Assembly: GCF_003574315.2 (NCBI RefSeq)
Contig: NZ_AP025739.1
Coordinates: 2,046,001 to 2,110,000 of the forward strand
From: Capsulimonas corticalis
Lineage (GTDB): Bacteria; Armatimonadota; Armatimonadia; Armatimonadales; Capsulimonadaceae
Direction: 5' to 3'
Length of the DNA: 64,000 bases
The notes under the pieces were generated by a model. The model worked only from the letters and a program-made list of their open reading frames with translations, ran no database searches and was not told the origin of the DNA. Positions 5,380 to 31,887 of the stretch are shown here, piece by piece; within the stretch, counting starts at the first letter, position 1; each line of letters begins with the position of its first letter. The position numbers were made by a program, and so were the translations under genes.

Positions 5380-5412
5380 AAAAAAAGCGGCTCACCCCTC
5401 GGGCGACCGCTT
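5380..5412 (-). terminator. Rho-independent terminator, minus strand
   Basis: On the minus strand the hairpin AAGCGG...CCGCTT with an inner GCCC/GGGT stem is followed by seven T residues. It lies upstream of the promoter of the 82-aa gene and downstream of the separate terminator of the PEP-CTERM gene, so it appears to end a short transcript that starts between about 5440 and 5620. Confidence 0.75.
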
Positions 5413-5450: not shown

Positions 5451-5621
5451 TTCATATTTCTTGCCAAAATGCAATAGACAATCCATTGATCTTGAATTGA
5501 AGAGAATGACGTCTCAATAGGACTGATGAACGTGCAAACGTACGAAGATGCAATCGATTGATGTTAGTTTAGCTCGTTATCGACCAATCTTTATGTCTCT
5601 TAATTGTATCACAAAATAAAG

Positions 5622-5658
5622 AAAAAATCTCCCCTGCGCAGCGAGGCGGAGGGGAGAT
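5622..5658 (-). terminator. Rho-independent terminator of the PEP-CTERM gene
   Basis: On the minus strand a 9-bp stem ATCTCCCCT / AGGGGAGAT encloses a GC-rich loop and is followed by a run of six T residues. It sits 15 bases after the stop codon of the PEP-CTERM gene. Confidence 0.85.
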
Positions 5659-5673
5659 TGGGGAGTTCGGGCG

Positions 5674-7263
5674 TTATCGGGTGATGGCTTGCCGCCGACT
5701 CGCCGCCCACAGAAGAATGCTGAGGCTGGAGGCGAGGGTGAGGAAGATAACGCCGCCGCCGGGTTCCGGCACAGTCACATGGCTGCTGGCGAAGAGGCCG
5801 CGATAGACGCCCGCGCCGGTGTCCAGCGAGACGCTGAAGTAATTGTCCGGCGACATATTCGTGGTGAACTGGATTGCGCTGGGATCGCCGATGAAACTGG
5901 CGAACTTCAGGAAATCGAACTCATAAAGGCCGCTGTGGAAGCGGGATTGGAAGAAGCTCTGCGTGAATTGCAGGTCGATCACGCCGCCGGTATATGTGTA
6001 GCTGCCGTCGATATCGATCTGGTCGAAATCGTGGGGGCTGTTGATGACAAAACGAGTGACGCCGTTGTTTTCGATGTAATTACCCGTGATGTGGGTTGTT
6101 GTCGGATCGCCGGGCGCGAACGTCCCGCCGTCCTGCACGACCGACCCGTCGATTGTCCCGCCGCCGCCCAGGCCGCCCTTTTCCAGATAGAAAGTTCCGG
6201 AGCCGCTGCCCAGCGTAAGGCTCCCATTGATCTTGGTCTGCCCGCCTGTCTGAATCAGATCGCCGGTCACCACCACGCCGCCCCCGCTGTCCGTCGTGAT
6301 CGAGCCGTCGTTGTAGACGAGCCCGCTGGTCGAGCTGAGTGTGACCACGCCCCCCTGAGACGCCGCGATGGCGCCGTGATTGTTGAGATCGCCTCCGGCC
6401 AGCAGATCCACCGTTCCGTACTGCGACGCCGAGACCGACCCTGCGGATTCGTTGGTGATGGCGCCGCTCGCGTTCACGGATACCTTCGTGCCCTGGATAG
6501 CGCTGACGGTGTTTGTATTGACGAAGTTACCGGTCGCGCTGGCGTCGATCTCCGCGCCGAACGAAGCCGTCATGGCTCCATTATTTTTGAGATCCCCGAA
6601 TGATGAGAGCACCGTCGCGCCGCCAAACTTTGCGTTCACATCACCGTTATTCGTGATGTTCGCGGCGTAGACGAACGTGGTTCCCTGCTGCGTGCTCCCA
6701 AGCGCGGCGTCGTTGGTCAGCGAGCCGTTCAGCGATTCCATCGTGGTGACGCCGCCATACGTGCTGTCGATCGTCCCGGTATTATGGATATCCCCATTGA
6801 CCGCGACGATCAGCGAGTTCTGCTGATCGGCGCCATACGCCGCGCCGATGTGCCCGGCGTTGTCCAGTCCGCCCCCCGCATCGATCTCAAAGCTGCTGAC
6901 ATAATTGGAGGTGATATTGCCGCCCGATTGATTGGCGATCCCGCCATTGATGGCCAGCACGCCCATATTATTATCGGCGGTGATCAAGCCGTTGTTAGTC
7001 AGGGAATTGATTGTGTAATTCCCGCCATACTGGATCTGATCCGTAGCGAGATTGACAAACACATCCTCCGGCGCCTGTGTCCCATCTCCGGGAACGATTC
7101 CCCCGCTCCAGCTGCCGGGATCGCCCCAGCTCGCGGATCCACTCCCCGTCCACGTGGCCGACGGAGCCGCGTAGCTTCCCGTGGCGGCCGGCAGCAGCAG
7201 AACCGCCGCCAGCGCCGCGATCCGCCCGCGCGAGCGCAGAAATGAGACATCGATGTGCTTCAT
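5674..7263 (-). CDS. PEP-CTERM sorting domain surface protein, repeat-rich beta-helix type
   Basis: A 529-aa exported protein. It has an N-terminal signal peptide (hydrophobic IAALAAVLLLPAATGSYA), a central region of about 400 residues made of irregular G/N/T-rich repeats typical of beta-solenoid autotransporter-like passengers (INNG, LNNHGAI, ITTDSGGGVVV), and a C-terminal sorting tag: VPEPGG, a hydrophobic helix, then RR near the end. PEP-CTERM tags are processed by exosortase; no exosortase gene lies in this window. It likely ends up on the surface or in extracellular matrix. It is monocistronic with its own promoter and terminator. GGAGA eight bases before the ATG supports the start. Confidence 0.85.
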   Translation of the reverse strand: MKHIDVSFLRSRGRIAALAAVLLLPAATGSYAAPSATWTGSGSASWGDPGSWSGGIVPGDGTQAPEDVFVNLATDQIQYGGNYTINSLTNNGLITADNNMGVLAINGGIANQSGGNITSNYVSSFEIDAGGGLDNAGHIGAAYGADQQNSLIVAVNGDIHNTGTIDSTYGGVTTMESLNGSLTNDAALGSTQQGTTFVYAANITNNGDVNAKFGGATVLSSFGDLKNNGAMTASFGAEIDASATGNFVNTNTVSAIQGTKVSVNASGAITNESAGSVSASQYGTVDLLAGGDLNNHGAIAASQGGVVTLSSTSGLVYNDGSITTDSGGGVVVTGDLIQTGGQTKINGSLTLGSGSGTFYLEKGGLGGGGTIDGSVVQDGGTFAPGDPTTTHITGNYIENNGVTRFVINSPHDFDQIDIDGSYTYTGGVIDLQFTQSFFQSRFHSGLYEFDFLKFASFIGDPSAIQFTTNMSPDNYFSVSLDTGAGVYRGLFASSHVTVPEPGGGVIFLTLASSLSILLWAASRRQAITR

Positions 7264-7342
7264 GAAGAGGGTCTCCGAATGAACTTGAGAATGTAACCGC
7301 CCATCGGCGCGGCTCTAAGATGGTAATTCGCCCAGGCAGTTC

Positions 7343-7372
7343 ATTATAACATAGGTCCGGCGCGGAGACCAA
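7343..7372 (-). promoter_or_regulatory. Sigma70-type promoter of the PEP-CTERM gene
   Basis: On the minus strand TTGGTC (7372-7367), an 18-base spacer ending in the extended -10 dinucleotide TG, and TATAAT (7348-7343). It gives a leader of about 75 bases before the ATG at 7263. Confidence 0.65.
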
Positions 7373-7462
7373 TATCGAGTGTGGAAGATTACGCAACATC
7401 ATCCGGCCATTGCGCGAAACGCTCGCAGCGTGGTACTCTATCAGCAAGGTTGCCGGCTTATC

Positions 7463-8038
7463 ATGAAGAGCATCCTAACAACAGTAGTCGTTTTGGCTGG
7501 GATGTTTCTCGTAGTGATATCAATTCCCGTAGGAATGGCGATAAGCGCCACACGAGAGCAGAAGTGTAAACAAAATGTTCTTTTGCCGAAAACCATGAAA
7601 CTTAAGCTTCTGAGAATCACTGCTGCATTAGCCATCCTCATTAATGGGTCTCTATTTTACGTTAACTTCATTTGGTATCATCCTCTATCCGTAGAGCAGG
7701 TCTTTTTGCATGCGGGTAGTATCTCATTTGTCACTCAAGGCACGAGTAGGGCGCCAGAAGATACAAATGTTGGAATGCCATCGGACGTAATCAAAAGCCT
7801 TCGAGCTCCTAATAAACTGATCGCTTCCTATATTCCTAAAGGCAAGCCGGATTGTTTTATTAAAATATGGTTCGATCCGGACTATCATCCGATGATTTAC
7901 CGCTTTGCGTATTATTCCGATCAAGGGATTTTCGGACAGCCCCATCGAGGGACATTCGACAGAAGACCCGATTGGCATTATGCGCCAAAGCCATTGCGTG
8001 ATTGGGTGGCGGCAAGCAAAATGGACTTTTCCCGGTAG
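7463..8038 (+). CDS. Unknown membrane-anchored protein, possibly a fusion
   Basis: A 191-aa protein from the ATG at 7463. It has two hydrophobic stretches: residues 1-30 (MKSILTTVVVLAGMFLVVIS...) and a second after MKLKLLRITAALAILINGSLFY. The first part ends ATREQKCKQN, which resembles the region after the transmembrane helix in the DUF1559 proteins found at 34-36 kb (ARSKQARCEKQL), so the 5' end may be a captured fragment joined to a gene that once began at MKLKLLRI (ATG near 7595). The C-terminal 120 residues are soluble with no recognised domain; its last 43 bases are duplicated at 9525. A start further upstream (7379) is possible but lacks support. Confidence 0.5.
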   Translation: MKSILTTVVVLAGMFLVVISIPVGMAISATREQKCKQNVLLPKTMKLKLLRITAALAILINGSLFYVNFIWYHPLSVEQVFLHAGSISFVTQGTSRAPEDTNVGMPSDVIKSLRAPNKLIASYIPKGKPDCFIKIWFDPDYHPMIYRFAYYSDQGIFGQPHRGTFDRRPDWHYAPKPLRDWVAASKMDFSR

Positions 8039-8606
8039 GTATCGACACCGCGAAAAGTCTAATCTCTCAGCATGAGGTATTTTGAAGGATGAGCGTATGA
8101 AGCGTAAGGTCATTGCTATCGCCAGCGTGTTAATCCTGCTGGCGGGCATTGCCGCATATCATAATCGGCACCCACTGCAAAGTGCATTTCAGAACGCTGA
8201 ATTGATCACTGTGGAGGGAGTGTTCCCTGATGATGGGCATTATCACCGGATTGTCTTATCTCGGACGAGCAACCCAGAAATGTTCGACCAATTTAAACAT
8301 CTCAATGCGTCATACGATCATTCCGCAGGCAGTCGACTTGTGCAAAAATGTTGCTTGATTACAGCATATCGTGGTATGCCAGAGCATACCAGGCTGGAGG
8401 CGGAGGCGCTTTGCCAAGCATCAGTCGTTACGAGAGCTATTTATACTAACGGCAACGAAATCGGAGTGCGTGAACAGGGAGGAGAGTGGTTTTTCGCTCC
8501 GAAACCATTATCGACATTTCTTCAGCAGCAATTCTCGCTTTCGGAAACCAAGCCAGACAAGCCTCCCGTGATAGTTCACAGCTCTCCTCAATGGCGCCTC
8601 AAACAA
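7996..8606 (+). repeat. Segmental duplication, copy 1
   Basis: This 0.6-kb segment is repeated at 9525-10136 with an offset of 1529 bases and nearly identical sequence over its first half. It begins inside the 3' end of the preceding gene and runs to the last codons of the small membrane protein gene. Divergence increases in the second half. Confidence 0.85.
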
Positions 8607-8615
8607 GTGGATTAA
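8097..8615 (+). CDS. Small membrane-anchored protein, paralogue 1
   Basis: A 172-aa protein with an N-terminal membrane anchor or uncleaved signal (MKRKVIAIASVLILLAGIAAY) and an extracytoplasmic domain containing VEGVFPDDGHYHRIVLSRTS and several cysteines (KCCLITAY, ALCQAS). I recognise no family. The ATG at 8097 follows AAGGATGAG; a TTG at 8082 is the outer alternative. It is nearly identical in its first 90 residues to the gene at 9626. The end of the upstream protein (HYAPKPLRDWVAASKM) and the C-terminal WFFAPKPLSTFLQQQF here share an APKPL motif, suggesting these small proteins are distantly related. Confidence 0.6.
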   Translation: MKRKVIAIASVLILLAGIAAYHNRHPLQSAFQNAELITVEGVFPDDGHYHRIVLSRTSNPEMFDQFKHLNASYDHSAGSRLVQKCCLITAYRGMPEHTRLEAEALCQASVVTRAIYTNGNEIGVREQGGEWFFAPKPLSTFLQQQFSLSETKPDKPPVIVHSSPQWRLKQVD

Positions 8616-8857
8616 TGCGATACGAGCGAGCCAACCGTACTATTTAGCCGGACAATGCGCCTCTCAGCCTTCCTAAGTTCAAAGCAATTAAGTAAGGAAT
8701 GATTAGGGAGCAGGAATAGGCTGTTTTGAAAATACCGCCGTATTATATTTCTAAAAATGCTGCTAGTTGGATGAATCATATCTCCATTGTGGATGCTGCT
8801 GTCTATGCAAACTTATTTTAGGCATACCCCACGGGATAGTAAAGGTCGGTGATCTTT

Positions 8858-9361
8858 ATGGATAAATGGTATTACCAAATGGCTAAACCCTCAGTGATCG
8901 CGCTGGTCGCATGCATTAGTGTTGCGGCTTTGATCGGCTACATCGTCAACCATCCCTCAATTCCTCTTAAGGATGGATCGTTCGTATCGTCAAACGGCCA
9001 ATATGGTGAGGAGAAAATCGATGCGGATGCGATCTATTTGTACGATCGTCATAAGCGACTTATCGTTTCAGACAGATCCCCCATTTGCCTCGCGAAATTC
9101 AATTTGGTGAAACGCTGGATGACGATCGAAGAAGTAAGGCAAATCCTCGGGTCACCCATCGGTGGCGACGAATCCAGGGAAGTTTGGTATGGCCCTGATG
9201 GAGCATTTGTGCTCATGTATTTTCACAATGGCGAAGTGAACCTGAAAGCTAGGAATTTTGATGGGGAACATGAAAGCCCAGATCGATGGAATCGTTTTTG
9301 GAGTAACACACATCAAGTAAATGGAAATTTTGGCGCTATCACAGGTTTATTGCCATCATAA
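8858..9361 (+). CDS. Small membrane-anchored protein with a BamE/SmpA-like motif
   Basis: A 167-aa protein with one N-terminal membrane helix (VIALVACISVAALIGYIV) and a soluble part containing MTIEEVRQILGSPIGGDESREVWY, which resembles the T-x-EEV-xx-LG-x-P signature of SmpA/OmlA (BamE)-like small domains. The resemblance is short and may be only structural. It lies between the two copies of the duplicated gene. Start chosen at ATG 8858; a GTG lies at 8849. The function is unknown. Confidence 0.55.
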   Translation: MDKWYYQMAKPSVIALVACISVAALIGYIVNHPSIPLKDGSFVSSNGQYGEEKIDADAIYLYDRHKRLIVSDRSPICLAKFNLVKRWMTIEEVRQILGSPIGGDESREVWYGPDGAFVLMYFHNGEVNLKARNFDGEHESPDRWNRFWSNTHQVNGNFGAITGLLPS

Positions 9362-9524
9362 ATGATTTTTAGTGATTCGTTGTCGATACTTTAAATGGAG
9401 TATAGAGCGTGAAAATCACAACATGATCGGCGACGACTGACAGAGCGATAAAATTATTTGACATTTACGAGCGCATAAAATTCGAAAATACTCCAACAAT
9501 TTACAGAAACGATGATACACTAAC

Positions 9525-10136
9525 GCGTGATTGGGTGGCGGCAAGCAAAATGGACTTTTCCCGGTAGGTATCGACACCGCGAAAAGTCTAATCTCTCAGC
9601 ATGAGGTATTTTGAAGGATGAGCGTATGAAGCGTAAGGTCATTGCTATCGTCAGTGTGTTAATCCTGCTGGCGGGCACTGTTGCATATCGTAATGGGCAC
9701 CCACTGCAAAGTGCATTTCAGAACGCTGAATTGATCACTGTGGAGGGAGTGTTCCCTGATGATGGGCATTATCACCGGATTGTCTTATCTCGGACAAGTA
9801 ATCCAGAAATGTTCGACCAATTTAAACATCTCAAATGGCCGCACGATCAATCCGCGAGAAGTCCAGGCATGCATAGATGTTGTTTGGTTACAGCATATCA
9901 TGGTCTGCCAAAGCATGTAGGATCGGAGGTGGAGGCGCTTTGTCAAGCATCAAGTGCTACTAGGGCTGTTTATATCGGTCTCGATGGAGAAATTGGAATA
10001 CAAGAAGGGAATGGACCATGGCTTTCTGCTCCGAAACCATTATATACTTTTCTTCAGCAGCAATTTTCGTTTTCGGAAACCAATACGGATAAGCCTCGGG
10101 TGATAGTTCATAGCTCTCCTCAATGGCGCCTCAAAC
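9525..10136 (+). repeat. Segmental duplication, copy 2
   Basis: Repeats 7996-8606. Copy 2 starts with the last codons and stop of the 7463-8038 gene (GCGTGATTGGGTGGCGG) although that gene is absent here, showing that this is the derived copy. The leader and the start codon of the following gene are preserved without indels. Confidence 0.85.
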
Positions 10137-10192
10137 AAATTGGGACTTCCGCCAAGCCGGCTATTGGATTCAATATCATACACATTCACTGA
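9626..10192 (+). CDS. Small membrane-anchored protein, paralogue 2
   Basis: A 188-aa paralogue of the 8097-8615 gene: the same N-terminal anchor and VEGVFPDDGHYHRIVLSRTS core, but with many substitutions from residue 75 on (KWPHDQSARSPGMHRCCLVTAY) and a C-terminal extension of about 17 residues that arises because the original stop context was not duplicated. Both copies keep the RCC/KCC cysteines and the APKPL motif, so both are probably expressed. The function is unknown. Confidence 0.6.
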   Translation: MKRKVIAIVSVLILLAGTVAYRNGHPLQSAFQNAELITVEGVFPDDGHYHRIVLSRTSNPEMFDQFKHLKWPHDQSARSPGMHRCCLVTAYHGLPKHVGSEVEALCQASSATRAVYIGLDGEIGIQEGNGPWLSAPKPLYTFLQQQFSFSETNTDKPRVIVHSSPQWRLKQIGTSAKPAIGFNIIHIH

Positions 10193-10272
10193 GGGAGTGT
10201 AAACTAGAGTGAGCTTTTGCCTTGATATCAAATTTGCTTCATAACAGATTTGGATGGCGTCACTATTTTGAC

Positions 10273-10302
10273 GTGGCCGGAGCGCGCTCACGCTCCGGCC
10301 AC
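10273..10302 (-). terminator. Hairpin after the DUF4139 gene
   Basis: Arms GTGGCCGGAGCG and CGCTCCGGCCAC pair perfectly around a six-base loop. It lies 13 bases beyond the stop codon of the minus-strand DUF4139 gene. The T-run is poor on this strand. Confidence 0.65.
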
Positions 10303-10314
10303 CTCTGCTTTGTT

Positions 10315-12459
10315 TTAATCCACCGTCAACTTCGCCACGAAGTTATTGAGTTCGGCTTGGCGCTGGTCGCGCTCGGCGGTCAGTTTGTCGATCTCGTTTT
10401 GTAAATTCTCCAATTGTGTTTCCTGTGTGTTGAGCTCGTTCACATAGCGTTTGTAGAGCGCGGAGGCGTGGTCCAGGGCTTTCATGTTGTCTCGGATGCG
10501 GGTTTGGCCCTGGGCGATGACGGCGAGCTGGGCTTTGCGGCTGTCGATCTGGCGCTGGAGGTCGCCGATGTGGCGGCGGCGGGCCATGACGTCTTTGAGG
10601 GCGGCTTTTACGGCGTCGCTGGCGTGGGTGGTGTTGACGAAGACGGTGAGGTCGTCGAAGCCGGTGTCGAGGAGGCCGTAGGTTTGGTTTTCGAGGTGCT
10701 CGCGGGTCACGGTCAGGCTTTTGGAGGCGCCGGCGGGGACCGCGAGGTCGAAACGGTCGAGCTGTGCGGTGTGTTCGGTGACTTCCTTGGGCTCCAGGAG
10801 CTTCCAGTCGTCGCCAGGGTAGGGCTGCTCGACGACCACGGTGCGCGACTTGGCGCTGTGGTTTTTGAAGGTGTAGATCGTTGCCTGCCGCTCTTTATGC
10901 GTGGCGATCAGCGTGCCCTGGCTGATCACAATAGACTGTAAATCTCCGCTGCCTTCGCCGGGCTTAGTCTCGGCGTCCAGCGCTTGGTCCACGGCGTAGG
11001 AGAGGATGCGGGTTTGATTGGGTTCGGTGTCGTCGATCAGCGCGTCGCCGACATAGCCGTTGGAGCCCGCGTTGTCGTCGAACACCGTCAGCGGCCCGCC
11101 CATCAGGTGCAGCCCCGTGGTGTTCTTCACGCGCGCGCCGAGGAGGGGATGGTCGGTTTGGACGGCGGCGTTGTAGATGCTGACTTCCTCGACATGGATG
11201 CCGGAGGACAGAAACGGGATCATGGCCGACTGCTGCCGGGGAACGTCCACGGGAGTCTTGACCTGATAGGCGAATAAGGCCGTGCCGAGCTGAGCGCCGC
11301 TGGAGGCGATGCTGTGGCGCGCGGCGTCGGCGAAGGAAGACTCGCCCTTGGCGGCGTCCCGGTTTCGGAACATTGCCCCCCCGACCGATGGGCTACCGGG
11401 CATACCTCCTCCAAAGCCCCCGCCGCCTCCGAATCCGCCGGACGGCGGCATGGCCGGCGCCGGCGTATCTTGAATTACCAGACTGTTATCGCCTTGGACC
11501 GTAGCAACAATATTGTTCACTCCCTCCGGTGTCTTTGCATTGATGTCGCTGGCGTAGGTCTGCGGGGTGGGCGACGCCTGCACGCGGGCCTGGACGACGG
11601 GGCGCGGGACGTAGAGCGGGGTGTAAAGGTCCTGAATAAAGGAGATTGGGCGGCCAGAGACAAGGCTGAGGTCAACGTTCTTCCAGTCGTCTTGCGTCGT
11701 GTTCTGCACCATCGCCCATCCCTGGATGACGGGTTTCGCGCCCAGCACCAGCCGGTAGCTGGTCTGCCACAGCGGCGCTTCGGTCAGATATCCGACGCGG
11801 ACGGGCCGGCTTCCCTTGCCGCGAAAGTTGAGCGTGACCGCGCGCTTGGTCGCGCTGCGGCTCTGCGCCACGGTCGTCAGCGCCTGATTGAGTTCCTCGT
11901 TGAGCTTGGGATCCGTGAGCTTTTCGGCGGTGATGGACGCCATGGGGATGGAGATCAGGCCGTCCGGAGTCACGAGATTCAGGGTCGATTGCTGGGTCAC
12001 GCCGCCGTTATTGGGCAGCGAGACCGTCTGCGTCTCCACGCCCATAATTGTTCCTGTAACTTTTACCGGTGCTCCGTTGTCTGTATAGCTGACGGTCGCT
12101 TCCGCGCCGCGCAGACGATTGAGCAGCGTGGCGCGATTGGGGTTGTCGCTCAGGTCGATGCTGAACGCTTGCAGCTGTCGCCCAAGGGAATCCTGGGCGG
12201 CGTACGTGACCGGCTGGATCGTTCCGCCGCCGGTGTCCAGCATGACCAGGGACTTCAGCACGTCGTTGATCTGTCCCACGGGGAAGAGCAGAGTCTCCGC
12301 GGCGTCGCCGCTGACGGACCCCGCGCGCTCGAAGTAGCCGACGCCGCTGGTGTAGAGCGTGACGCGGGTGACGGGGAGGTCGGCCGCGGAAGTGTCGGCT
12401 CCGGCCGGCAGCGCCGCCAGAGTGAGCAGCAGTGTGATTGCGATAGGATGAGTACGCAT
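10315..12459 (-). CDS. Secreted DUF4139 domain-containing protein
   Basis: A 714-aa exported protein. The signal peptide is at residues 1-22 (AITLLLTLAALPAGAD). The N-terminal part (VTRVTLYTSGVGYFERAG...) and the long C-terminal half with VRVGYLTEAPLWQTSYRLVL and VEEVSIYNAAVQTDHPLLGARVKNTTGLHLMGGPLTVFDD match the DUF4139 family, beta-rich proteins of unknown role. A low-complexity PSGGFGGGGGFGGGMPG linker lies near residue 345. The last 80 residues form a coiled coil (RHIGDLQRQIDSRKAQLAVI, ENLQNEIDKLTAERDQRQAEL). AGGAG before the ATG supports the start. It is monocistronic. Confidence 0.82.
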   Translation of the reverse strand: MRTHPIAITLLLTLAALPAGADTSAADLPVTRVTLYTSGVGYFERAGSVSGDAAETLLFPVGQINDVLKSLVMLDTGGGTIQPVTYAAQDSLGRQLQAFSIDLSDNPNRATLLNRLRGAEATVSYTDNGAPVKVTGTIMGVETQTVSLPNNGGVTQQSTLNLVTPDGLISIPMASITAEKLTDPKLNEELNQALTTVAQSRSATKRAVTLNFRGKGSRPVRVGYLTEAPLWQTSYRLVLGAKPVIQGWAMVQNTTQDDWKNVDLSLVSGRPISFIQDLYTPLYVPRPVVQARVQASPTPQTYASDINAKTPEGVNNIVATVQGDNSLVIQDTPAPAMPPSGGFGGGGGFGGGMPGSPSVGGAMFRNRDAAKGESSFADAARHSIASSGAQLGTALFAYQVKTPVDVPRQQSAMIPFLSSGIHVEEVSIYNAAVQTDHPLLGARVKNTTGLHLMGGPLTVFDDNAGSNGYVGDALIDDTEPNQTRILSYAVDQALDAETKPGEGSGDLQSIVISQGTLIATHKERQATIYTFKNHSAKSRTVVVEQPYPGDDWKLLEPKEVTEHTAQLDRFDLAVPAGASKSLTVTREHLENQTYGLLDTGFDDLTVFVNTTHASDAVKAALKDVMARRRHIGDLQRQIDSRKAQLAVIAQGQTRIRDNMKALDHASALYKRYVNELNTQETQLENLQNEIDKLTAERDQRQAELNNFVAKLTVD

Positions 12460-22897: not shown

Positions 22898-23025
22898 GCT
22901 TTCGCAATTCGCTCCCAATACTGCGCGGCTCTATTATTTTGTCCCAATCGGATACTCTTGCAAAGAGCATTGCAAATCGGAAGTCCAGCCGTTGCAGTGT
23001 ACAGTAGTATCAGGAGGATTGACGC

Positions 23026-23239
23026 ATGGGTTAACACGGCGATACAGAACGAGCTTTGTCAGCAGATGGAATTACTTCCGTAAGAGCAGCAGCAAGTCCT
23101 GCAATTCGCGCGGGCGTTATCAGTTTCGTCAGTGCGTGGAGTTCCTGGCGCCAGCCTCTTGAAGTTCGGTGGGGCCATTCCTATTGACGATTTCAGGATC
23201 ATGGAGCAGGCGATTGAGGATGGGTGTGAGCGGGAATAA
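23026..23239 (+). pseudogene. Broken antitoxin-like gene (DUF2281/VapB-type)
   Basis: A decayed small gene. Reading AAC ACG GCG from 23033 gives NTAIQNELCQQMELLP, a TAA stop, then EQQQVLQFARALSVSSVRGV PGASLLKFGGAIPIDDFRIMEQAIEDGCE, the pattern of small antitoxins paired with PIN-domain toxins (alpha-helical LP-x-EQQQQVLQFA start and ending MEQAIEDGCE). The TAA replaces an expected Gln codon, and an extra G after the ATG (ATGGGTTAAC instead of ATGGTTAAC) breaks the start. AGGAGG lies upstream. No PIN toxin follows. This relic marks the left edge of the AT-rich island. Confidence 0.65.
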
Positions 23240-23387
23240 AGTTGAACTATCTGCAATTTTGAATATCAGTGTCGAAATTGGAGCAAAAAGCTTGCTAGCG
23301 AAGTACTCGAAGGCAGGGATATGATGCGGTATAATAAATAATATCTCCCAATGTAAGAATAGGATCTCATTATTTGAGAAAATTTGA
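23240..23387 (+). promoter_or_regulatory. Upstream region of the methyltransferase-ATPase-receiver operon
   Basis: An AT-rich stretch after the antitoxin relic. GGTATAAT at 23329-23335 is a good -10 but has no convincing -35, which could mean activator dependence. No hairpin or long repeat was seen. Base composition changes here from GC-rich to AT-rich and stays so until 28949. Confidence 0.4.
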
Positions 23388-24833
23388 ATGAGAAATGTGC
23401 CCGAAGCTGTATACATTAAAACTACGTTTAAGCGGGCATCCAATCCACTGCGTGTCAAATCCGCTTGCCTTCCTTCAACTCCTCCCCCAAATCCGGCTCA
23501 AGATCTAGACCAGGAGCTGTCGAAGCAGTTTAAGGCAACCTTACGGCGTGTCACTGACTCTGATGCTGCCTATTGGGATTACTCCAGTATCAAGTCCAAT
23601 TCAAATCCGCAAGCATATTTTCAATATCCAGCGATGATGGTTCCACGAATGCAGGGAGACATTATCGATGCTATCCAGAAAGTTTTTCCAGGGACTGAGC
23701 GTACGTTTGACCCATTTGCCGGCTCTGGCACTATTCTTGTGGAATCGCTTAAGCGTGGACTAAACTCGCTTGCTACAGATATCAATCCAATGGCAATTTT
23801 GCTCTGTCGCGTCAAGACACAGCCGTTTCGAGTTAATGAAGCCGAGAACGCGTTTAAAGAAGTCATAAATATTGCTGCCTCAGATATTAGTGATAAGATT
23901 GAAATTGATTATACAAACAGAGAAAAGTGGTTCAGTCTTACATCTTTGATTGAGCTTTCGCGAATACGCAGAGCCATCGTAAGAATAGAAGATGTTGAAC
24001 TCCGAAGACTTCTCTGGGTAGCCTTTGCCGAAGCCATAAGAATATCATCAAATTCTCGAACTTCAACGTATAAGCTACACATACGTGATAGTGATGATAT
24101 TGAACGAAGATCTGTAGGTGTTAAATCTAGAATTAATACATCAATGACACAAGTTATTGACATGTATAAAAAAAACTACATCCAGTTGAAGGAAGCTGGA
24201 ATTCTCGAAGAGAATCATTTCACAAAAGAAGCAAAAATTCTTAATCATAACATTTGTTCCATTCTCAAGTCAGAGGTAGCAGATGCACTTATAAGTTCTC
24301 CTCCATATGGAGATAATCATACGACTGTAACTTATGGACAACATTCGTTTCTCCCTCTTTGCTGGATACCAATTAACGATATTGATTCTTCTTTGGATGC
24401 GACTATTATAGCAAATACCCACTCTATTGATTCTGCAAGCCTTGGTGGGCGCAGAGAGGGAGCATTAACGAAGAGAAGTAAAATAAGCGAACGATCTAAT
24501 ACTCTAGAAGAATTACTTAATAATCCAAACGTTTCTAAAGATGCTCAGCAACGTCTGTCTGTGTTTTTCTATGATCTCGACAAAGGCCTCGCAAATGCAA
24601 TATCAGTCCTTAAGCCAAAGTCGCCTATCGTACTCACACTTGGAAATAGATGTGTAAGCAATCAAAAAGTCAGAATGGATAAAATAGTTGAAGAGTTGCT
24701 TATTGCTCAAGGTTGTGAATTTATAGATATTCATGACCGTGCAATACCAACAAAACGGATGGCGCACCGGAATCAGACTGCTGGAACTATGCTTACTGAG
24801 ACGCTCCTTATTATGCGAGGTCCGAAGTTATGA
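23388..24833 (+). CDS. DNA methyltransferase of an AT-rich defence-like operon
   Basis: A 481-aa SAM-dependent amino-methyltransferase of DNA (N6-adenine or N4-cytosine). It has a motif-X-like FQYPAMMVPRM (78-88), motif I FDPFAGSGT (107-115) followed by the acidic DINPMA (131-136), and motif IV SPPYGD (304-309). About 190 residues separate I from IV and probably hold the target-recognition region, while the end returns to VLTLGNRCV. No restriction nuclease domain is fused to it. Its stop overlaps the next start (ATGA at 24830), implying coupled translation. Start at ATG 23388 is the first in the frame after the -10 element, and its ribosome-binding site is weak. Confidence 0.85.
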   Translation: MRNVPEAVYIKTTFKRASNPLRVKSACLPSTPPPNPAQDLDQELSKQFKATLRRVTDSDAAYWDYSSIKSNSNPQAYFQYPAMMVPRMQGDIIDAIQKVFPGTERTFDPFAGSGTILVESLKRGLNSLATDINPMAILLCRVKTQPFRVNEAENAFKEVINIAASDISDKIEIDYTNREKWFSLTSLIELSRIRRAIVRIEDVELRRLLWVAFAEAIRISSNSRTSTYKLHIRDSDDIERRSVGVKSRINTSMTQVIDMYKKNYIQLKEAGILEENHFTKEAKILNHNICSILKSEVADALISSPPYGDNHTTVTYGQHSFLPLCWIPINDIDSSLDATIIANTHSIDSASLGGRREGALTKRSKISERSNTLEELLNNPNVSKDAQQRLSVFFYDLDKGLANAISVLKPKSPIVLTLGNRCVSNQKVRMDKIVEELLIAQGCEFIDIHDRAIPTKRMAHRNQTAGTMLTETLLIMRGPKL

Positions 24834-27208
24834 GACAAAATGCCTTTTTCAGAGTAGATGCAAGTCTGATGCAGCAACTGGGTGCTAGCTTGATAACTGA
24901 CGATATGTCAGCATTAATCGAGTTAATTAAGAATGCTTATGATGCCGACGCCACCAATGTGAAAATAATTATTGAATCACCTGACCGTATTGTTGTTGAA
25001 GATAATGGTCATGGTATGAATGAGAAAATTATCGAAAGAGGATGGCTTACATTATCAAATTCCCTGAAGTTGGAACAGAAAAATAAAGGAATTCTAACGG
25101 CAAAACAAAAGAGAACTCCATTGGGAGATAAAGGCCTTGGTCGCCTGAGCACACAAAGGCTAGGAAATCGCCTAAGAATTGAAACCTGCCCCGAAGATTC
25201 AGATCAACGATTTGCGGTTGAAATTGATTGGTCCACATTCAAAGCTGGTTCTGAACTCGGTTCAATCCCCGTGGATTTTGAAGTGTTAGATCGTAGCAAT
25301 AAGAGACCAGGAACTAAGCTAATTATAACAGAGCTTTCGGATCCTGAACACTGGACGAGATTAAAAACTGAAGATTTGAAACTTAGCTTAGCGTCTTTAG
25401 TCTCTCCATATTCCGAAGTCGCTCGGTTTCGTTTGCAGGCATTTCTAAATGGAATTGAGGTCTCTCCAAGTTTATTAAGTTCGAACATAAGGAAGGCCGC
25501 ATGGCAACATTTGGATTTTGTATTTGATGGAAATACTTTAGAGTCATCAGGGCGAATAAAATCACAATCGTTACGCGGCACTACTAAAAAGGCTAAAGAG
25601 GATTATGAACGATATTTTCAATCAGATAGTGGGGCAGGGTTTCTAAAGTTCATTTTATCAGATAAAAAATCTTCTTCATATCGTATTGTCAAATCTGAAT
25701 CAAAATTCTATTTTATAGAATTTTTAGTATCAAGAGAATTTCTTGATATTATTTCTGGTCAGAATCTTAGCAACCCTGGGAATTTTTCTGGAGAAGTTGA
25801 TTCGTTTTCCTTACAGTCGCAAGGTAGTGCGGATGTTATGGAGGAAAACGATATATTCAATTCAGCCAGTGCTGCAAGACAGCTAGTAAAGGATTTGAGT
25901 GGTATAAGAGTATATAGAGATGGATTTGTTATTCGTACTGAGCATGATTGGCTGAAATTAGGGGAAGGCCAAACAAGTGGCTCTTCTTTTTACGGGCTTC
26001 GCCCTTTTAATACAATGGGATACGTAGCTCTCAGTGCGATACACAACTCTAAATTGAGAGAAACAACTGATAGAGAAGGATTTATTGATGATCCGTATTA
26101 CAGGGCATTCTTTCAAATTTTACGGTCATTTTTAAAAACATCGAATGATGTAATTGAGCATATCCGCCGTACATGGACTTCATATATAAAAGAGCAGGAA
26201 ATGGTGAGGCATGAACTACCGAGCCGCGATCCAAAAATTATTGAGGATAGGCTGAATGACTCATTCGAGCGTGTCGGCGATGCAAAGATCCTATTAGGTC
26301 AAGCATCTAAAGCAATTTTAGCATCTGTAGAGGAGGATGCCAAATCACTATTTCCTAACGATCCGAAGACGGCTAGTAGGATGAATGATGTACAGGAGTT
26401 GCTCGCTCAAGCATCTGAGACTCTCGATACCGTCAGTGCGCGTGGTGGTCTCGGCGGTTTACTAGTAGCTGAGCTGAATTCGCTTAATACACGTATCAGT
26501 GAAGTGTATGAACTTGTTAGCTTAGGAATTACTGCTGAAGTCCTATCGCACGATATAAGTGTAATCTTAGAACGCCTTTCGCTGGAGACAAACAATATTC
26601 AAAAACACGCACAATCATCAAATCTTAACGATTTAAAGATCCTGCGTTTTTTTGAAGTTGTAAGATCAACAGTTAGTGCACTCGAGAAACAGTTAGGTCA
26701 TCTCGACCCGGCCCTCAAATATGCACGCGAAAAACGAGAAGGATTTTTGTCCTCTGAACTTATTACTGAATGCGAATCCTATTATCGTCAGCGGTTGGTT
26801 AAAAATAATATATTGTTAGCCGTATTCATTAATATAGACTTTTCTATATTAATGAACAAAGGTAAACTAATCCAAATTCTTGATAACTTAGTGTTGAATT
26901 CCGAATATTGGATCACTAAATCTTTTGATGATAATAAGCAAGCTGGACAGGTTATAATAACTGTTGAAAAGCCATGTATAATAATTTCAGATTCCGGCCC
27001 TGGTATCGAACCTGCGTTTGAGGAAACTCTCTTTGATCCATTTATTACTGCTAAACCGGCCGGCGAAGGACGCGGACTTGGCTTATTCATCGCGACACAA
27101 TTGCTAGAACTAGACGGATGCTCGATAAATTTGTTAGCGGAAAAAAATAATCAAGGGCGACGATTTCGCATTGCCGTCAATCTTGAAGGAGTCTTGCTAG
27201 ATGCCTGA
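24830..27208 (+). CDS. MORC/MutL-like GHKL ATPase fused to a histidine-kinase-like module
   Basis: A 792-aa protein with two Bergerat-fold ATPase units. The first (about 1-200, HATPase_c_3 type) has ALIELIKNAYDAD (E31, N35), DNGHGM (58-63) and LGDKGLGR (98-105), followed by a transducer-like region with VYRDGFVIR (361-369) and ETTDREGF. After a helical part comes a DHp-like helix, LGITAEVLSHDISVIL, with H574 as a possible phosphoacceptor, then a kinase-type domain with an N-box around ILDNLVLNSEYW (N690), G1 DSGPGI (721-726), F-box LFDPF and G2 GEGRGLGL. Bacterial MORC-like GHKL proteins are known from restriction-modification contexts. It overlaps both neighbours, so all three act together. 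Direct DNA action plus phosphoryl transfer is inferred. Confidence 0.85.
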   Translation: MRQNAFFRVDASLMQQLGASLITDDMSALIELIKNAYDADATNVKIIIESPDRIVVEDNGHGMNEKIIERGWLTLSNSLKLEQKNKGILTAKQKRTPLGDKGLGRLSTQRLGNRLRIETCPEDSDQRFAVEIDWSTFKAGSELGSIPVDFEVLDRSNKRPGTKLIITELSDPEHWTRLKTEDLKLSLASLVSPYSEVARFRLQAFLNGIEVSPSLLSSNIRKAAWQHLDFVFDGNTLESSGRIKSQSLRGTTKKAKEDYERYFQSDSGAGFLKFILSDKKSSSYRIVKSESKFYFIEFLVSREFLDIISGQNLSNPGNFSGEVDSFSLQSQGSADVMEENDIFNSASAARQLVKDLSGIRVYRDGFVIRTEHDWLKLGEGQTSGSSFYGLRPFNTMGYVALSAIHNSKLRETTDREGFIDDPYYRAFFQILRSFLKTSNDVIEHIRRTWTSYIKEQEMVRHELPSRDPKIIEDRLNDSFERVGDAKILLGQASKAILASVEEDAKSLFPNDPKTASRMNDVQELLAQASETLDTVSARGGLGGLLVAELNSLNTRISEVYELVSLGITAEVLSHDISVILERLSLETNNIQKHAQSSNLNDLKILRFFEVVRSTVSALEKQLGHLDPALKYAREKREGFLSSELITECESYYRQRLVKNNILLAVFINIDFSILMNKGKLIQILDNLVLNSEYWITKSFDDNKQAGQVIITVEKPCIIISDSGPGIEPAFEETLFDPFITAKPAGEGRGLGLFIATQLLELDGCSINLLAEKNNQGRRFRIAVNLEGVLLDA

Positions 27209-28949
27209 TGCTAATGGAACTAAATTCCAGACGACGCTTGTCGAGTTAGGTATTAGACGAGTGATCTGTGTGGATGATGTATACGATAATAGATTTGATA
27301 TCGAAAGTATTGTTGCTTGGAGCAGCAGTTCGGCAAATAAAACTTTCATGGCCGCTGTTCTTGAAAAGCTTGATTGTAATATTGATTTATCTTCTGAAAC
27401 GGCTATTCCCGAACTTCGGCAGGCAATAATTGACAACACCATCAATTCTGCTGAAATACAAGCCAGTATTGATCGACAACGTCTAAAGAAAAATGCGCCT
27501 GGTAGTCTGAATGAGAACGAGATACAGATACTTACAGACCGCAGTGTCCTTAGCAGACTTGATGGAATCTTATTAGGATTTCCTGATTTTCAACGTTTAA
27601 GTCCTAGACAATGGATAGAAAATAAAGACGATATTCTTAATTCTTTGGATAAAATTAATACATTATTCATATTTGACGAGAACCTCGGATTAGGCGTCCC
27701 ATCTGGCAGTGATTTTATTCGTGAAATCACCATTTTGAATAGTGGAAATAATGCATTGTTTGGATTGTTGTCTTATACTATTATTCCTGGAACCGAACAC
27801 GACATAACACGTAAATTCCAACAAGACAATATTGCTGCAACTGCGATCCCAAAACGCGACCTCTCTAATACAACTGGAGTTGAAAAATTGCAGTTAAGAC
27901 TACGCGCAGCTGTTCTGTGGAGAGAGTCGAAAGACTTAAGAGTAACCTGTCAAAATGCTATACAATCTGCAAGTTTAACTGCTTATGAACGTGTAAATGA
28001 TCTAACCACTTTAGAATTTGACGAAGTAGTTTTTCAGTCTTCATACTATGAAGGTGTTCACGAAATGGACACTCTTGTGCGTATTTATACTAACGCCTTC
28101 GCTGCTTCCCTTAGAGAAAAACTCAGATCAAATACTAATGCGCTCAATAATATCGATAATCTTCGTAGCTTTCGAGGGGATCAAGATAAATTAGATAGTG
28201 CCGGTTCGACTGCTTGGAAGTTACAACGAGAAGAATACTATGATGCCGGAGAGTATATAAATTCCTGCAAGATGCCCCCTGAGCCTGGTGATATATACAC
28301 ATTATATGATGAACATGGAGTTCCTAGGGAATATATACTCATTGCACCACCGTGTGACTTAATGATACGTAGCTCGTCTGGGAACCGGAAAGATGGAATT
28401 ATTAGTTGCTTGCTCTGTCAAATATTGACAAACAAGCCTGATGATAATAAGACAAAAGAAACGTTCCAGCTGGAATATTATGCTAGAGAAAATGGTAGCC
28501 CTGCGTGGGTGTATTTTGCTAATAGTATAACGCTAGATTTATGGCTTCTTGATCTATGCGCCACAAATTCTTCCGGAGAAGCCCATATTTTTCTTGATGG
28601 AACCATTCCAAAGCATTTGTCTGACGGTTGGAAGAAATATTTTGTAGGCTATTTAGTACCAAAATGCAAGAAACTTGTTTTAGGTTGGAATTCATGGTTA
28701 GCGCTGCCAAAAACTGTGCGAACCCAAACCGGAGTTCGACCTGCTCACGGTGTAGTTCTGAATAGCACGTTTCAACTTAAGCTGAAAATTACGAAAAAGT
28801 ATAATAAAGCTGTAATAAATCTTGGTGTTAAGAGGGAAAAGCGTATCGCTCCAATTCTACAAAGTGAATTGATAAGGTCATATAGTGATTATCTTGCCCG
28901 TCCAGCGCGCCCGCATTCCCTTGATTTGAGTTCAAGTATTCACAGTTAA
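27201..28949 (+). CDS. Receiver-like domain protein with large unknown C-terminal region
   Basis: A 582-aa protein. The N-terminal 230 residues have the signs of a response-regulator receiver: an acidic pair in VICVDDVYD (D25, D26), a candidate phosphoacceptor D159 in FIFDENLGLGVPSGSDFI, a Ser/Thr at SYT (191-193) and a lysine in AIPKRD (K218). About 110 extra residues are inserted between the first strand and the phosphoacceptor. The remaining 350 residues, including PPCDLMIRSS and a hydrophilic, lysine-rich end, match nothing I know; they may be the effector. The start overlaps the kinase-like gene by eight bases. The predicted partner is therefore the H574 module of that protein. Confidence 0.72.
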   Translation: MPDANGTKFQTTLVELGIRRVICVDDVYDNRFDIESIVAWSSSSANKTFMAAVLEKLDCNIDLSSETAIPELRQAIIDNTINSAEIQASIDRQRLKKNAPGSLNENEIQILTDRSVLSRLDGILLGFPDFQRLSPRQWIENKDDILNSLDKINTLFIFDENLGLGVPSGSDFIREITILNSGNNALFGLLSYTIIPGTEHDITRKFQQDNIAATAIPKRDLSNTTGVEKLQLRLRAAVLWRESKDLRVTCQNAIQSASLTAYERVNDLTTLEFDEVVFQSSYYEGVHEMDTLVRIYTNAFAASLREKLRSNTNALNNIDNLRSFRGDQDKLDSAGSTAWKLQREEYYDAGEYINSCKMPPEPGDIYTLYDEHGVPREYILIAPPCDLMIRSSSGNRKDGIISCLLCQILTNKPDDNKTKETFQLEYYARENGSPAWVYFANSITLDLWLLDLCATNSSGEAHIFLDGTIPKHLSDGWKKYFVGYLVPKCKKLVLGWNSWLALPKTVRTQTGVRPAHGVVLNSTFQLKLKITKKYNKAVINLGVKREKRIAPILQSELIRSYSDYLARPARPHSLDLSSSIHS

Positions 28950-28950
28950 C

Positions 28951-31887
28951 TTACTCATCCTTCTCCCGCGCCCGCCGCTTTGCGTCGAGCAGGCGGTCGG
29001 TGTAGCCGCCTTCGCCAGCTTTGGGGTCGGTGGGCGGTTTGGGTGGGGGCGGGGTGCGGAGGGAGGCGACTCTTGGGAAGCTTTCGTCGGTGTCGCGAGT
29101 GGGAGCGGCGCGGCGGTTGAGGAGGCGGTCGGTGGCGGCGCCGGGGGATTCGGGGGGCGTGGCGGCGCGGGATTCGGCTTTGCGGTTGAGGAGGCGGGCC
29201 ATTTGCGGCGCGGGGTCGCGGCGTTTGGCGTGCTCTTTTTTGACGGCTTCGGCTTTGGCTTCGGCGGCTTCCACGCCCTGGACGGCGGCGTCGCGGATCT
29301 GCGCCGGGCGGATGCCGAGGCGGCGAATGGCGACGTCGAAGAGGAAGAGGAGGGCGGCGAGCGTCAGCAGGATAGGCGCGAGGTCGAGGCGGCCGACTTC
29401 CCAGAGGGGCGCGTCGCGGAAGATGCGCGTGGGGTCGGTCTGGAACCGGCCGCCGGTGGCGTCGGTGAGGCGCGTGAGCAGCGGCAGGTTCGGCGTCACC
29501 GTGCGATACTCGGGAGAGTAGGGGACGACGAGGCCGAGGCTCTGGCTGGACGACGGCGCGTTGGGCGCCGCCGCGTTCGGCGCGCGCTGGACATTCACCA
29601 TGTACGCGCCGGTCTGATCGGTGTCGAAGGTCGATTCGTAGTGGCCGGGGCCGGTCTGGGCAAGATCGATATCGTGAATGCTCTGGTCGGGCGCCACGAC
29701 GCGGGCAGTGAGCTTGGCGTTGTTGACGAAGCCGCCGGATGAGAGGGCGTCCACCGTCAGGTGGCCCTTGCCGTTGGCGTTCTCGACATTCGAAGCGAAG
29801 TCGGCGTCGGTGTTCGAGCGCAGGGACCAGCGCAGGGCGTGCGCCCAGAACTGCGGATAGCCGGCCCATGGGAGCCATGGCGCGGCCCAGTGCGCTTGAT
29901 CGTCGCTGGTGAAGGCGAACGTACGGCCGAGGCCGTAGCGCCAGTGCGCGAAGAGCGGGTCGCTGTGCTCGGGCGCGGTGAGCGGCACGACGGCGCCGGG
30001 CTTGGCGGTCGAGATATTGTAACCGAGCAGCGGCGGCGCGCTTGCCCAGTTTAAGCTGCCGGTGATGTCGTCCGTGAAGTCTTCACGCGCCAGAAACGAC
30101 TTCTCGACGATCAACTGCTTGCTGACGGTCTGCTGGTCCTTCAGGAGAAGCCCCGGCAGATCGCTCGCCTGCTCGGCGACATACGCCTTGCCGCCGCCGA
30201 CCGTGGCGAGGTCTTTCAAGAACTGGATGCCGCCGGGGTCCGCGCCGCTCGCGATGGTCGAGACGGTGACGCCCATCTTGTGGATGTTCTGCACGACGCG
30301 AGCTGTAGCGGCTGTGTCCTGGGTTGCGTCGCCGTCGCCGAAGAAGATGATGTGCTGGATCGGCGCGCCCGTGCTCTTGACCACGCCCGCCGCCGACTGG
30401 AGATAGAGATCGTAGTTGGGCGGATCGTTCATCCCCGTCAGATCGCTCATCTGGTTCTTGATCGCCGTCCGGTCGATCACGTGCTGCATCGGGATGCGCC
30501 AGATGTTGTTGCAGTCGATGACGCCGAGCTGATCCTGCGGCTCCATGGCGTCGACAACGCCCTTCGCGGCCTCGATCGACCAGTTGATTGTCGTTTCTTC
30601 TTCCAGGTCTTCGATCACCAGCGCGATCGCCGCCGGCGGGATGCGCTTGCGGTCCTTCACATCCATGCGCACGGGCAGCGCCGCTTCGATGGGAGTCCCC
30701 TGGTAGTTGCCCGCCCCGTAGCTCGTGGTTCCGCCGATCATCCCCAAGCCCATGCCGAAGTCGCGCACGGATTCTTCCATCGCTGTCATCGCGGGCGAAC
30801 CAACTTCATCGGCGGAGACATCGGAGAGCACGACGGCGTCGTAGGGCGCCAGGGCCGCCACGGTGGTCGGCGCGGCGGTCGGCGTCACGGTGTCCATCTG
30901 AATATTCTGGGCGGCCATCGCCTGCTGGAGCGTCGGCGCGATATGCCGGTCGGGGGCGGCGATATAGAGGATGTGCGGGCGGCCCTGCACGGTTACGAAG
31001 CCGTAGGCGTGATTGTTTTCGGCGACGGTGTCGGCGGACGGCTCCAATTGGGCGTCGTAGCGATGGAAGCCGGGCTGCTCCACCTTTTCCTGGAAGCTGA
31101 GCGCGTTCTTACCCGCGCGCAGATGGAGCCGGGTGCGTAGGATCTGCTGACCGTCGCGCTGGAGCGAGATGTTCGCCGACTGCGCCACCGTGCTGCTGAC
31201 CACGATCCGGACGGGAAAGGGAGCGGACTTGCGCACGCGGGCGGGGGTGTTGACGCCCTCCACGAGCGCCTCCGCCGCTGTTTCGCCGTTCTGACCCAGC
31301 GCGAGCGGCGGGGCGGCGATATCCACGCGTACGCCGTCGCGCTTCAGTGATTCGATCTCGGAAGCGGCGTCGCCGACATTCTCATTGCCGTCGCTGACAA
31401 TCACGATCTTGCGGCCGGAGTCATTGGGGAAGGTGCTGCTGGCGACACGCAGCGCGCCTTGCAGGTCCGTCGCGTCGCCCGCCACGCTCGGATGGATATT
31501 GTCGATCTGATCGACATTGTCCGAAGGCCGCGCTTCGACATTGGGCGTGCGCCCAAACACCACGACCCCCGCCTCATCCGCCCGGTGCTTCGACGCCAGC
31601 GCCTTGCGCACGAAGTCCAGTCCCCGCGCCCGCTGGTCCGGACGGATCGACCGGGAGACATCCACGAGAAAGAGGGTCGTGAGCTTATCGCTGCGCTTGA
31701 CCAGGTGGACCCCGGAGAGCGCGATCAGCACAAGAACGACGACCGCCATGCGCACCGCCAGCGCCAGCCGCTCCGTCGCTGGATGCAGCCCCGCGAGCGA
31801 CCGCCGCGCCGTCCACCAGACGCCGGCGAGCAGCAGCGGAAGCAAAAGAAAAACCAGCGGCCGGTCGAAAGCAAATGGGAACTGCAT
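28951..31887 (-). CDS. Large membrane protein with VWA domains and a GATase1-like region
   Basis: A 978-aa BatA/aerotolerance-like protein. N-terminal hydrophobic helices (FLLLPLLLAGVWW and MAVVVLVLIALSGV) precede a von Willebrand A domain with a full MIDAS (DVSRS, 76-80, and VSDGNE). A middle part has the class I glutamine-amidotransferase-like fold seen in this family (GMIGGTTSYGAGNYQGTPIE). A second VWA follows whose first MIDAS motif is degenerate (LVIEDLEEE instead of DxSxS). One more transmembrane helix lies near LAPILLTLAALLFLFD, followed by a Pro/Arg-rich cytoplasmic tail. The role is likely in cell-envelope assembly or regulation; ligands are unknown. It converges on the defence operon with one base between stops and no terminator. 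Confidence 0.82.
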   Translation of the reverse strand: MQFPFAFDRPLVFLLLPLLLAGVWWTARRSLAGLHPATERLALAVRMAVVVLVLIALSGVHLVKRSDKLTTLFLVDVSRSIRPDQRARGLDFVRKALASKHRADEAGVVVFGRTPNVEARPSDNVDQIDNIHPSVAGDATDLQGALRVASSTFPNDSGRKIVIVSDGNENVGDAASEIESLKRDGVRVDIAAPPLALGQNGETAAEALVEGVNTPARVRKSAPFPVRIVVSSTVAQSANISLQRDGQQILRTRLHLRAGKNALSFQEKVEQPGFHRYDAQLEPSADTVAENNHAYGFVTVQGRPHILYIAAPDRHIAPTLQQAMAAQNIQMDTVTPTAAPTTVAALAPYDAVVLSDVSADEVGSPAMTAMEESVRDFGMGLGMIGGTTSYGAGNYQGTPIEAALPVRMDVKDRKRIPPAAIALVIEDLEEETTINWSIEAAKGVVDAMEPQDQLGVIDCNNIWRIPMQHVIDRTAIKNQMSDLTGMNDPPNYDLYLQSAAGVVKSTGAPIQHIIFFGDGDATQDTAATARVVQNIHKMGVTVSTIASGADPGGIQFLKDLATVGGGKAYVAEQASDLPGLLLKDQQTVSKQLIVEKSFLAREDFTDDITGSLNWASAPPLLGYNISTAKPGAVVPLTAPEHSDPLFAHWRYGLGRTFAFTSDDQAHWAAPWLPWAGYPQFWAHALRWSLRSNTDADFASNVENANGKGHLTVDALSSGGFVNNAKLTARVVAPDQSIHDIDLAQTGPGHYESTFDTDQTGAYMVNVQRAPNAAAPNAPSSSQSLGLVVPYSPEYRTVTPNLPLLTRLTDATGGRFQTDPTRIFRDAPLWEVGRLDLAPILLTLAALLFLFDVAIRRLGIRPAQIRDAAVQGVEAAEAKAEAVKKEHAKRRDPAPQMARLLNRKAESRAATPPESPGAATDRLLNRRAAPTRDTDESFPRVASLRTPPPPKPPTDPKAGEGGYTDRLLDAKRRAREKDE

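Follow-up and report, generated by a model that had tools for sequence, protein, structure and literature searches.

What takes over when a DNA methyltransferase gene, a frequent companion of a restriction endonuclease, is followed by genes for a histidine kinase and a receiver protein? Restriction normally relies on a cutting enzyme that is held off by a matching mark. The question is raised by a three-gene operon in a 64,000-nucleotide stretch of the Capsulimonas corticalis genome (contig NZ_AP025739.1, positions 2,046,001 to 2,110,000; hereafter the window), which encodes a predicted methyltransferase (protein 1), a fusion of a GHKL-S5 ATPase with a histidine-kinase core (protein 2), and a receiver with an additional C-terminal domain (protein 3). 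We give an about even chance to the reading that this is a mobile defence operon coupled to DNA modification, whose two-component phosphorelay takes the place of the restriction endonuclease, with trigger, phosphotransfer, and output taken together. A preliminary description, made from the sequence alone, had proposed modification-dependent defence; a defence role is still the best reading, but "modification-coupled" fits better because protection of self DNA is the most likely task of the methyltransferase. If a phosphorelay does replace the cutter, the recognition of self and non-self DNA would turn into a regulated signal, one whose switch is reversible and whose effector can be exchanged.

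Conservation and co-divergence of the three genes

The trio is a real, mobile, and conserved operon. Among the matches listed, 17 loci carried a close kinase (at least about 31% identical along almost the whole length): 13 in genomes (L008-L020, taken from 80 of 263 relatives), two on plasmids (L002 and L003, left out of the alignments used for folding), and two on virus-collection contigs (L088 and L108). Profile searches recovered the methyltransferase and the kinase at 17/17 of these loci and the receiver at 16/17; at the 17th, L009, a frame with the receiver motifs ran open as far as the contig end. The methyltransferase and kinase genes were separated by -35 to +30 bp at all close loci other than L019, where the methyltransferase was convergent and placed after the receiver. 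In this last locus, a Pimelobacter bin, open reading frames (ORFs) of 506, 620, and 1122 amino acids (aa) led up to the kinase gene (1-6732). The taxa included Deltaproteobacteria, Bacteroidota, an actinobacterial bin, and two Nanoarchaeia bins, several of them metagenome bins in which mis-binning is possible.

The three proteins also diverged together. In 17 complete trios (the window included, L009 excluded), Mantel correlations were 0.728 for methyltransferase and kinase, 0.731 for methyltransferase and receiver, and 0.857 for kinase and receiver, values reached in 0/5000 permutations each, and they remained at 0.67-0.85 after L108 and L019 were dropped. A chance association of the three genes was rejected on this co-divergence and on their presence together at all 17 close loci, which span several phyla; the preliminary description had called for such a neighbourhood survey.

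Domain architecture and catalytic residues

The motifs claimed beforehand, namely DPFAGSGT and SPPY in protein 1, two GHKL units and a His box in protein 2, and a receiver set in protein 3, were all recovered, as were both ATPase folds and the receiver in the predicted structures (AlphaFold, VIA). Sequence, predicted structure, and conservation together establish which parts are present, the invariance of the catalytic residues, and the joint inheritance of the three genes.

In protein 2, Pfam identified HATPase_c_3 at residues 27-137 and HATPase_c at 679-785, with the His box at H574. Both domains were matched in 19/19 aligned kinases (the window protein and three wider-family sequences included), and H574, the GHKL residues E31, N35, D58, and G62, and the N, G1, F, and G2 residues of the catalytic and ATP-binding (CA) boxes were identical in all 19. 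The AlphaFold model had a mean predicted local distance difference test score (pLDDT) of 78 and a predicted template modelling score (pTM) of 0.56, with lower values in the coiled coil and part of the dimerization and histidine phosphotransfer (DHp) region. Residues 1-450 matched MutL (1b62; VIA Z 18.8, root-mean-square deviation (rmsd) 4.5 over 301 residues), MORC3 (5ix2; Z 19.2, rmsd 4.4 over 303 residues), and Hsp90 (Z 19.4, rmsd in the range 4.4-4.6 over about 300 residues). Residues 563-792 matched the CA domain of CckA (Z 19.5, rmsd 2.1 over 147 residues) and LvrB, the latter with Z 20.3 yet an rmsd of 13.3 over 221 residues. These models support the prediction that protein 2 consists of a MutL/MORC/Hsp90-like GHKL-S5 ATPase, a coiled coil, and a DHp-CA histidine-kinase core. 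H574 is positioned in the helix preceding a DHp-like turn, where model confidence was middling.

Protein 3 has an N-terminal receiver, interrupted behind strand 1 by a helical insert, then a helical linker and a C-terminal domain marked by a GD...CD...RxG pattern (AlphaFold mean pLDDT 77, pTM 0.62). Residues 12-239 matched receivers, the best being CheY3 (VIA Z 11.7, rmsd 2.9 over 121 residues). The receiver residues are D25-D26, D159, S191, and K218; among the 15 aligned receivers, the window protein included, D25, D159, and S/T191 were kept in 15/15 and K218 in 14/15. Conservation and predicted folds therefore provide the complete set expected of a two-component pair: a DHp histidine, the N, G1, F, and G2 boxes, and a DD-D-S/T-K receiver. 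The cREC_REC profile gave weak matches to 1/15 trio-family receivers (0.0097) and to one wider-family receiver, in L004 (1.2e-4); according to PMC7824862, this receiver type never accompanies histidine kinases. A virus-collection scan with the receiver alignment returned 53 pattern matches and no relative among them.

Because receivers took all VIA rows for protein 3, the C-terminal part was barely probed in that comparison. Residues 352-582 form a mainly beta domain in the model, and G363, D364, C385, R390, D451, and R545 were present in 15/15 sequences. Foldseek returned MazF-type toxins as the first eight PDB matches of this domain (prob 1.00), a weak match by its best E of 3.9e-3, TM to target of 0.44-0.53 in the better rows, and rmsd near 5; the first virus-protein match was a PemK/MazF toxin too (E 0.031). 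The modelled C-terminal domain perhaps resembles the MazF fold. Among solved-structure sequences, its profile matched two FtsY sequences only (E 0.97 and 4.2), and a solved-structure search with protein 3 gave nothing under E 0.24.

Protein 1 is predicted to be a type II-like SPPY amino-methyltransferase, with DPFAGSGT (motif I) at residues 108-115 followed by SPPY at 304-307, the latter kept in 18/18 aligned methyltransferases (window protein included), and with matches to Pfam MethyltransfD12 (4.1e-7) and PADLOC MTase_II (4.5e-85). Five plasmid neighbourhoods of its relatives, all outside the trio family and drawn from 36 matched plasmid records, were inspected. An MvaI/BcnI restriction endonuclease was annotated beside the methyltransferase relative at three of them (L007, L209, and L211), and none was annotated there at L006 and L210. 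Since relatives of the methyltransferase adjoin MvaI/BcnI enzymes at 3/5 plasmid loci, it seems that the position of the endonuclease is occupied here by the kinase and receiver. MvaI/BcnI enzymes are associated with N4-cytosine methylation.

A wider family of kinase-receiver pairs

The N-terminal GHKL profile matched 168 ORFs, and the kinase core was also matched in 144 of these. A hydrophobic-DD motif near the N-terminus was found in 117/132 downstream neighbours, as opposed to 122/729 other ORFs. Among 86 of these 132 partners, a subset outside the trio family that also omits L005, L042, and others (many near-duplicates), Pfam (E<=0.01) identified Response_reg in 18 and Response_reg_2 in one. 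In 59 of 99 upstream proteins (trio-family methyltransferases, short ORFs, and others omitted), the Pfam matches, in categories that may overlap, were DNA_methylase (C5) 20, Eco57I 12, N6_Mtase 11, N6_N4_Mtase 8, and PAPS_reduct one. By a crude motif test, a methyltransferase-like ORF lay within 3.5 kb at 60/129 loci; counted by ORF, the test was positive for 63/566 near and 6/277 far ORFs.

The C-terminal-domain profile of the trio matched 34/132 partners, of which 16 belong to the trio family and 18 do not. A second profile, built on short receivers (12 of 20 short-family candidates, chosen by the CD motif), matched 36 partners outside the trio family and four members of it. When aligned separately, the two profiles matched each other at E 1.2e-7, as against 0.06-0.96 in 30 shuffles, but over 30 columns only. 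This recurrence outside the trio family makes the C-terminal domain a plausible output.

Several neighbourhoods of the wider family are recorded here in their own right. On a Ca. Chlorohelix plasmid (L005; NZ_CP128402.1, Chloroflexota; 95-11067), a pair of dual-GHKL kinase and receiver lies amid cysteine desulfurase, DUF4007, and PAPS-reductase genes, a set of the phosphorothioation type; its receiver-like protein of 714 aa displays GD and CD motifs by eye and was reached by neither profile. On a C. armoricus plasmid (L004, 6001-10451), the genes of a distant kinase, a response regulator, and a C5 methylase lie side by side; kinase matches occurred in 43 Campylobacter plasmid records, with neighbours viewed in L004 alone. 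Three consecutive ORFs matched the protein 2 profile in a Cenarchaeum metagenome-assembled genome (L064, 6743-15200). Finally, L063, L072, L074, L078, and L087 encode GHKL proteins (828-863 aa) that lack a kinase core. Upstream of each lies a gene that resembles C5 methylases by motif, and downstream a gene for 239-304 aa; these GHKL proteins possibly represent a BbrUII/HgiDII-like branch.

Genomic context and probable acquisition of the operon

The coordinates of the operon and its parts are given in Table 1.

Table 1. Features of the operon, in window coordinates
Feature	Position	Strand	Remark
Gene 1, DNA methyltransferase	23388..24833	+	481 aa
Gene 2, GHKL-S5 ATPase/histidine-kinase fusion	24830..27208	+	792 aa
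Gene 3, receiver protein	27201..28949	+	582 aa
Receiver C-terminal domain (residues 352-582), supposed output domain	28254..28946	+	Weak Foldseek MazF matches; recurs outside the trio family
Probable horizontally acquired segment with the operon	23235..28929	.	Similarity break relative to same-genus contig L192; GC drop

As the preliminary description had stated, the three genes overlap (by 4 bases for genes 1 and 2 and by 8 for genes 2 and 3) and are AT-rich, with a guanine-cytosine (GC) content of 0.395 as against 0.605 in the remaining window, where the lowest value in 469 trio-sized sliding windows was 0.511. It had also placed the change in composition at the gene borders. The GC drop is evident, but similarity to a same-genus contig (L192) stops at 23234 and restarts at 28930, so the foreign segment probably begins about 150 bp 5' of gene 1. 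Similarly, the next gene does follow after one base, but it occupies the minus strand (28951-31887) and thus meets the operon tail to tail. Promoter-like sites around the operon numbered 21, with 15.3 expected (standard deviation 3.7), and terminator-like sites 5, with 4.5 expected.

The counterpart gap in L192 spans 1.1 kb and holds an opposite-strand gene with a TIR domain (PF13676, 1.3e-10), whose product (P0004) had no PADLOC match at E<=0.01. In the host genome (7.6 Mb, single contig), proteins 1 and 3 had one match each, and the only full-length match of protein 2 was the operon copy, with nine further matches confined to the kinase end. A vertically inherited host operon was ruled out by the GC drop, by the detection of protein 3 in 0/60 relatives scanned (many of these genomes being incomplete), and by the different gene at the same-genus site. 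Directly 5' of the operon, window positions 22989-23234 hold a disrupted, putatively antitoxin-like stretch; it had no Pfam match, and its counterpart in L192 is an intact ORF (40-393).

Proposed mechanism and alternative explanations

From these parts we infer the trigger (unmodified DNA, perhaps read via the methyltransferase), a phosphotransfer from H574 to D159, and the nature of the output. The methyltransferase would mark host DNA, and unmodified target DNA would be reported by the GHKL-S5 clamp in protein 2, acting by itself or together with the methyltransferase. ATP-driven closure of the clamp could then be relayed along the coiled coil into the DHp-CA core, where H574 would be autophosphorylated and pass its phosphoryl group to D159 of protein 3. 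Phosphorylation may free or dimerize the C-terminal domain, which would in turn damage nucleic acid or shut down the infected cell. We count in support of this phosphorelay the trio at 17/17 close loci, its co-divergence, the conserved catalytic residues and folds, the DD-motif neighbours and upstream methylases of the wider family, the recurrence of the C-terminal domain, the MvaI/BcnI pairing at 3/5 plasmid loci, and the TIR gene at the same-genus site.

Several results weigh against it. The C-terminal domain was found in 39/116 partners outside the trio family with both profiles combined, only about a third. A PemK profile comparison (hhalign) gave E 0.23, inside the 0.17-0.91 of 30 column-shuffled controls, and PemK_toxin (PF02452) matched 0/15 trio-family receivers in Pfam; homology to MazF was dropped for want of profile support, and only the possible fold resemblance was kept. 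The comparison with defence-system models suggested in the preliminary description was productive for protein 1 (MTase_II) and for the GHKL part of protein 2 alone (REase_II), but PADLOC gave no match in protein 3. A scan of 93 of the 94 listed trio neighbours, with no control, yielded few defence-family matches (GmrSD_N 2, HEPN_Swt1 2, and BrxL 1). A defence hotspot at the insertion site was not supported in three further same-family genomes (L212-L214), which carry ordinary-looking genes there, as judged by eye on the corresponding side of the vWA gene; this comparison did not extend to G003 and G005, whose vWA gene is a more distant one. Lastly, no name, phage test, or biochemical test of the trio was found among the papers listed from a mainly open-access literature without bioRxiv, as judged by titles and abstract openings.

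An unlikely alternative has proteins 2 and 3 jointly cutting unmodified DNA as an ATP-dependent restriction complex, as proposed for paraMORC systems, with phosphorylation minor and the kinase-receiver parts acting as a protein-protein switch. It draws on the likeness of protein 2 residues 7-199 to the BbrUII/HgiDII family (1e-25), on two PADLOC REase_II models that match the GHKL part only (1.5e-9 and 1.1e-6), and on VcSduA, a GHKL ATPase fused to a nuclease, which restricts phage (PMC12137116). The BbrUII/HgiDII likeness, however, reached 90.4 of the 550 bits set as the cut-off of NF050001, Pfam, NCBIfam, PADLOC, and PHROGs recognised no nuclease family in proteins 2 and 3 beyond the GHKL-part models, and the conserved catalytic residues of both kinase and receiver argue against a minor role for phosphorylation. 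The adjacency of kinase, receiver, and methyltransferase is also compatible with a two-component regulator of restriction-modification (R-M) gene expression that takes an intracellular signal as input, as the authors of a 2021 survey speculated (PMC8011034). We consider this quite improbable: no DNA-binding output family in Pfam is common to protein 3 and its 14 aligned relatives, which gave single-member matches only (e.g., HALZ 7.4e-4, KfrA_N 0.087, and Trns_repr_metal 0.14), and no endonuclease gene that could serve as target was recognised in the operon. The presence of the trio on plasmids and in the virus contig collection, together with the addictive potential of R-M genes (discussed in PMC8011034), could instead point to a non-defence, epigenetic-sensor role, with the pair monitoring the methylation of the host or DNA damage to adjust growth, or acting as an addiction module of mobile DNA upon methylation loss. 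Such a role would leave unexplained the similar pairs beside different modification chemistries, and we regard it as distinctly improbable.

Returning to the phosphorelay, a more tentative and rather doubtful extension is a general class of modification-gated phosphorelays, in which a mobile kinase/receiver cassette, often with the GD...CD...RxG domain, would replace the endonuclease across N4/N6, C5, and phosphorothioation-type marking. Were this class to exist, restriction would become a response that can be switched, runs through a signal relay, and is possibly suicidal, and sequence specificity might reach the kinase from the marking enzyme itself.

Comparison with known systems

Among named defence systems, the trio may be compared with Detocs, which uses a kinase-receiver phosphorelay for phage defence with the effector on the response regulator; unlike the trio, Detocs is not known to include a methyltransferase, and it employs another sensor and effector. 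In relation to type II R-M systems, the methyltransferase is present by sequence family, being related to that of an MvaI/BcnI system (L. curvatus, 29.6% identity over 89% of protein 1), whereas the cognate endonuclease was not recognised in the operon (Pfam, NCBIfam, PADLOC, and PHROGs); the endonuclease and helix-turn-helix regulator of MvaI/BcnI systems are both absent from the trio, which has a kinase and a receiver there instead.

GHKL-S5 proteins have been placed in R-M systems by Iyer et al. (2008, PMC2292703). Like protein 2, the MORC and paraMORC ATPases described there have an N-terminal GHKL-S5 module tied to DNA modification genes, but the partners described for them include a nuclease, TIR, or helicase, in contrast to the full kinase core and separate receiver seen here. 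The abbreviations HATPase, for a histidine kinase-like ATPase, and REC, for a receiver domain, appear among predicted, unvalidated systems in the legend of Fig. 6F of the DefensePredictor study (PMC13092281), where the two domains may come from a single system, possibly of the trio's family, or from separate ones.

The closest published arrangement is that of the HEF_HK kinases and Response_reg_2 partners, which were linked in 91.6% of 644 regions (Bellieny-Rabelo et al. 2021, PMC8011034). The preliminary description did not recognise the trio as a named system, which holds for the literature searched, although this sister arrangement had been predicted in 2021. As far as could be found, publications treat the kinase-receiver pair solely as a prediction and assign it no output. 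As in the trio, a kinase composed of HATPase_c_3, a DHp-like region, and HATPase_c adjoins a divergent receiver, a DNA methylase often lies upstream, and a paraMORC origin has been proposed. The two differ in that C5 methylases, conspicuous near those pairs, are dominant (not universal) there, whereas the trio has an SPPY amino-methyltransferase related to MvaI/BcnI; moreover, Response_reg_2 proteins were described with no other known domain (PMC8011034), whereas a C-terminal domain is defined in the trio receiver. In Pfam, HEF_HK (PF19191) had no match in protein 2 at E<=1, and Response_reg_2 (PF19192) matched 0/15 trio-family receivers at the same threshold, yet 7/19 sequences in the protein 2 alignment, which includes the three wider-family sequences, matched HEF_HK at E<=0.1, the best of them at 1.8e-6. 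On these profile matches, we therefore place the trio as a sister branch of the HEF_HK/Response_reg_2 elements, outside Pfam's definition, and not as a member.

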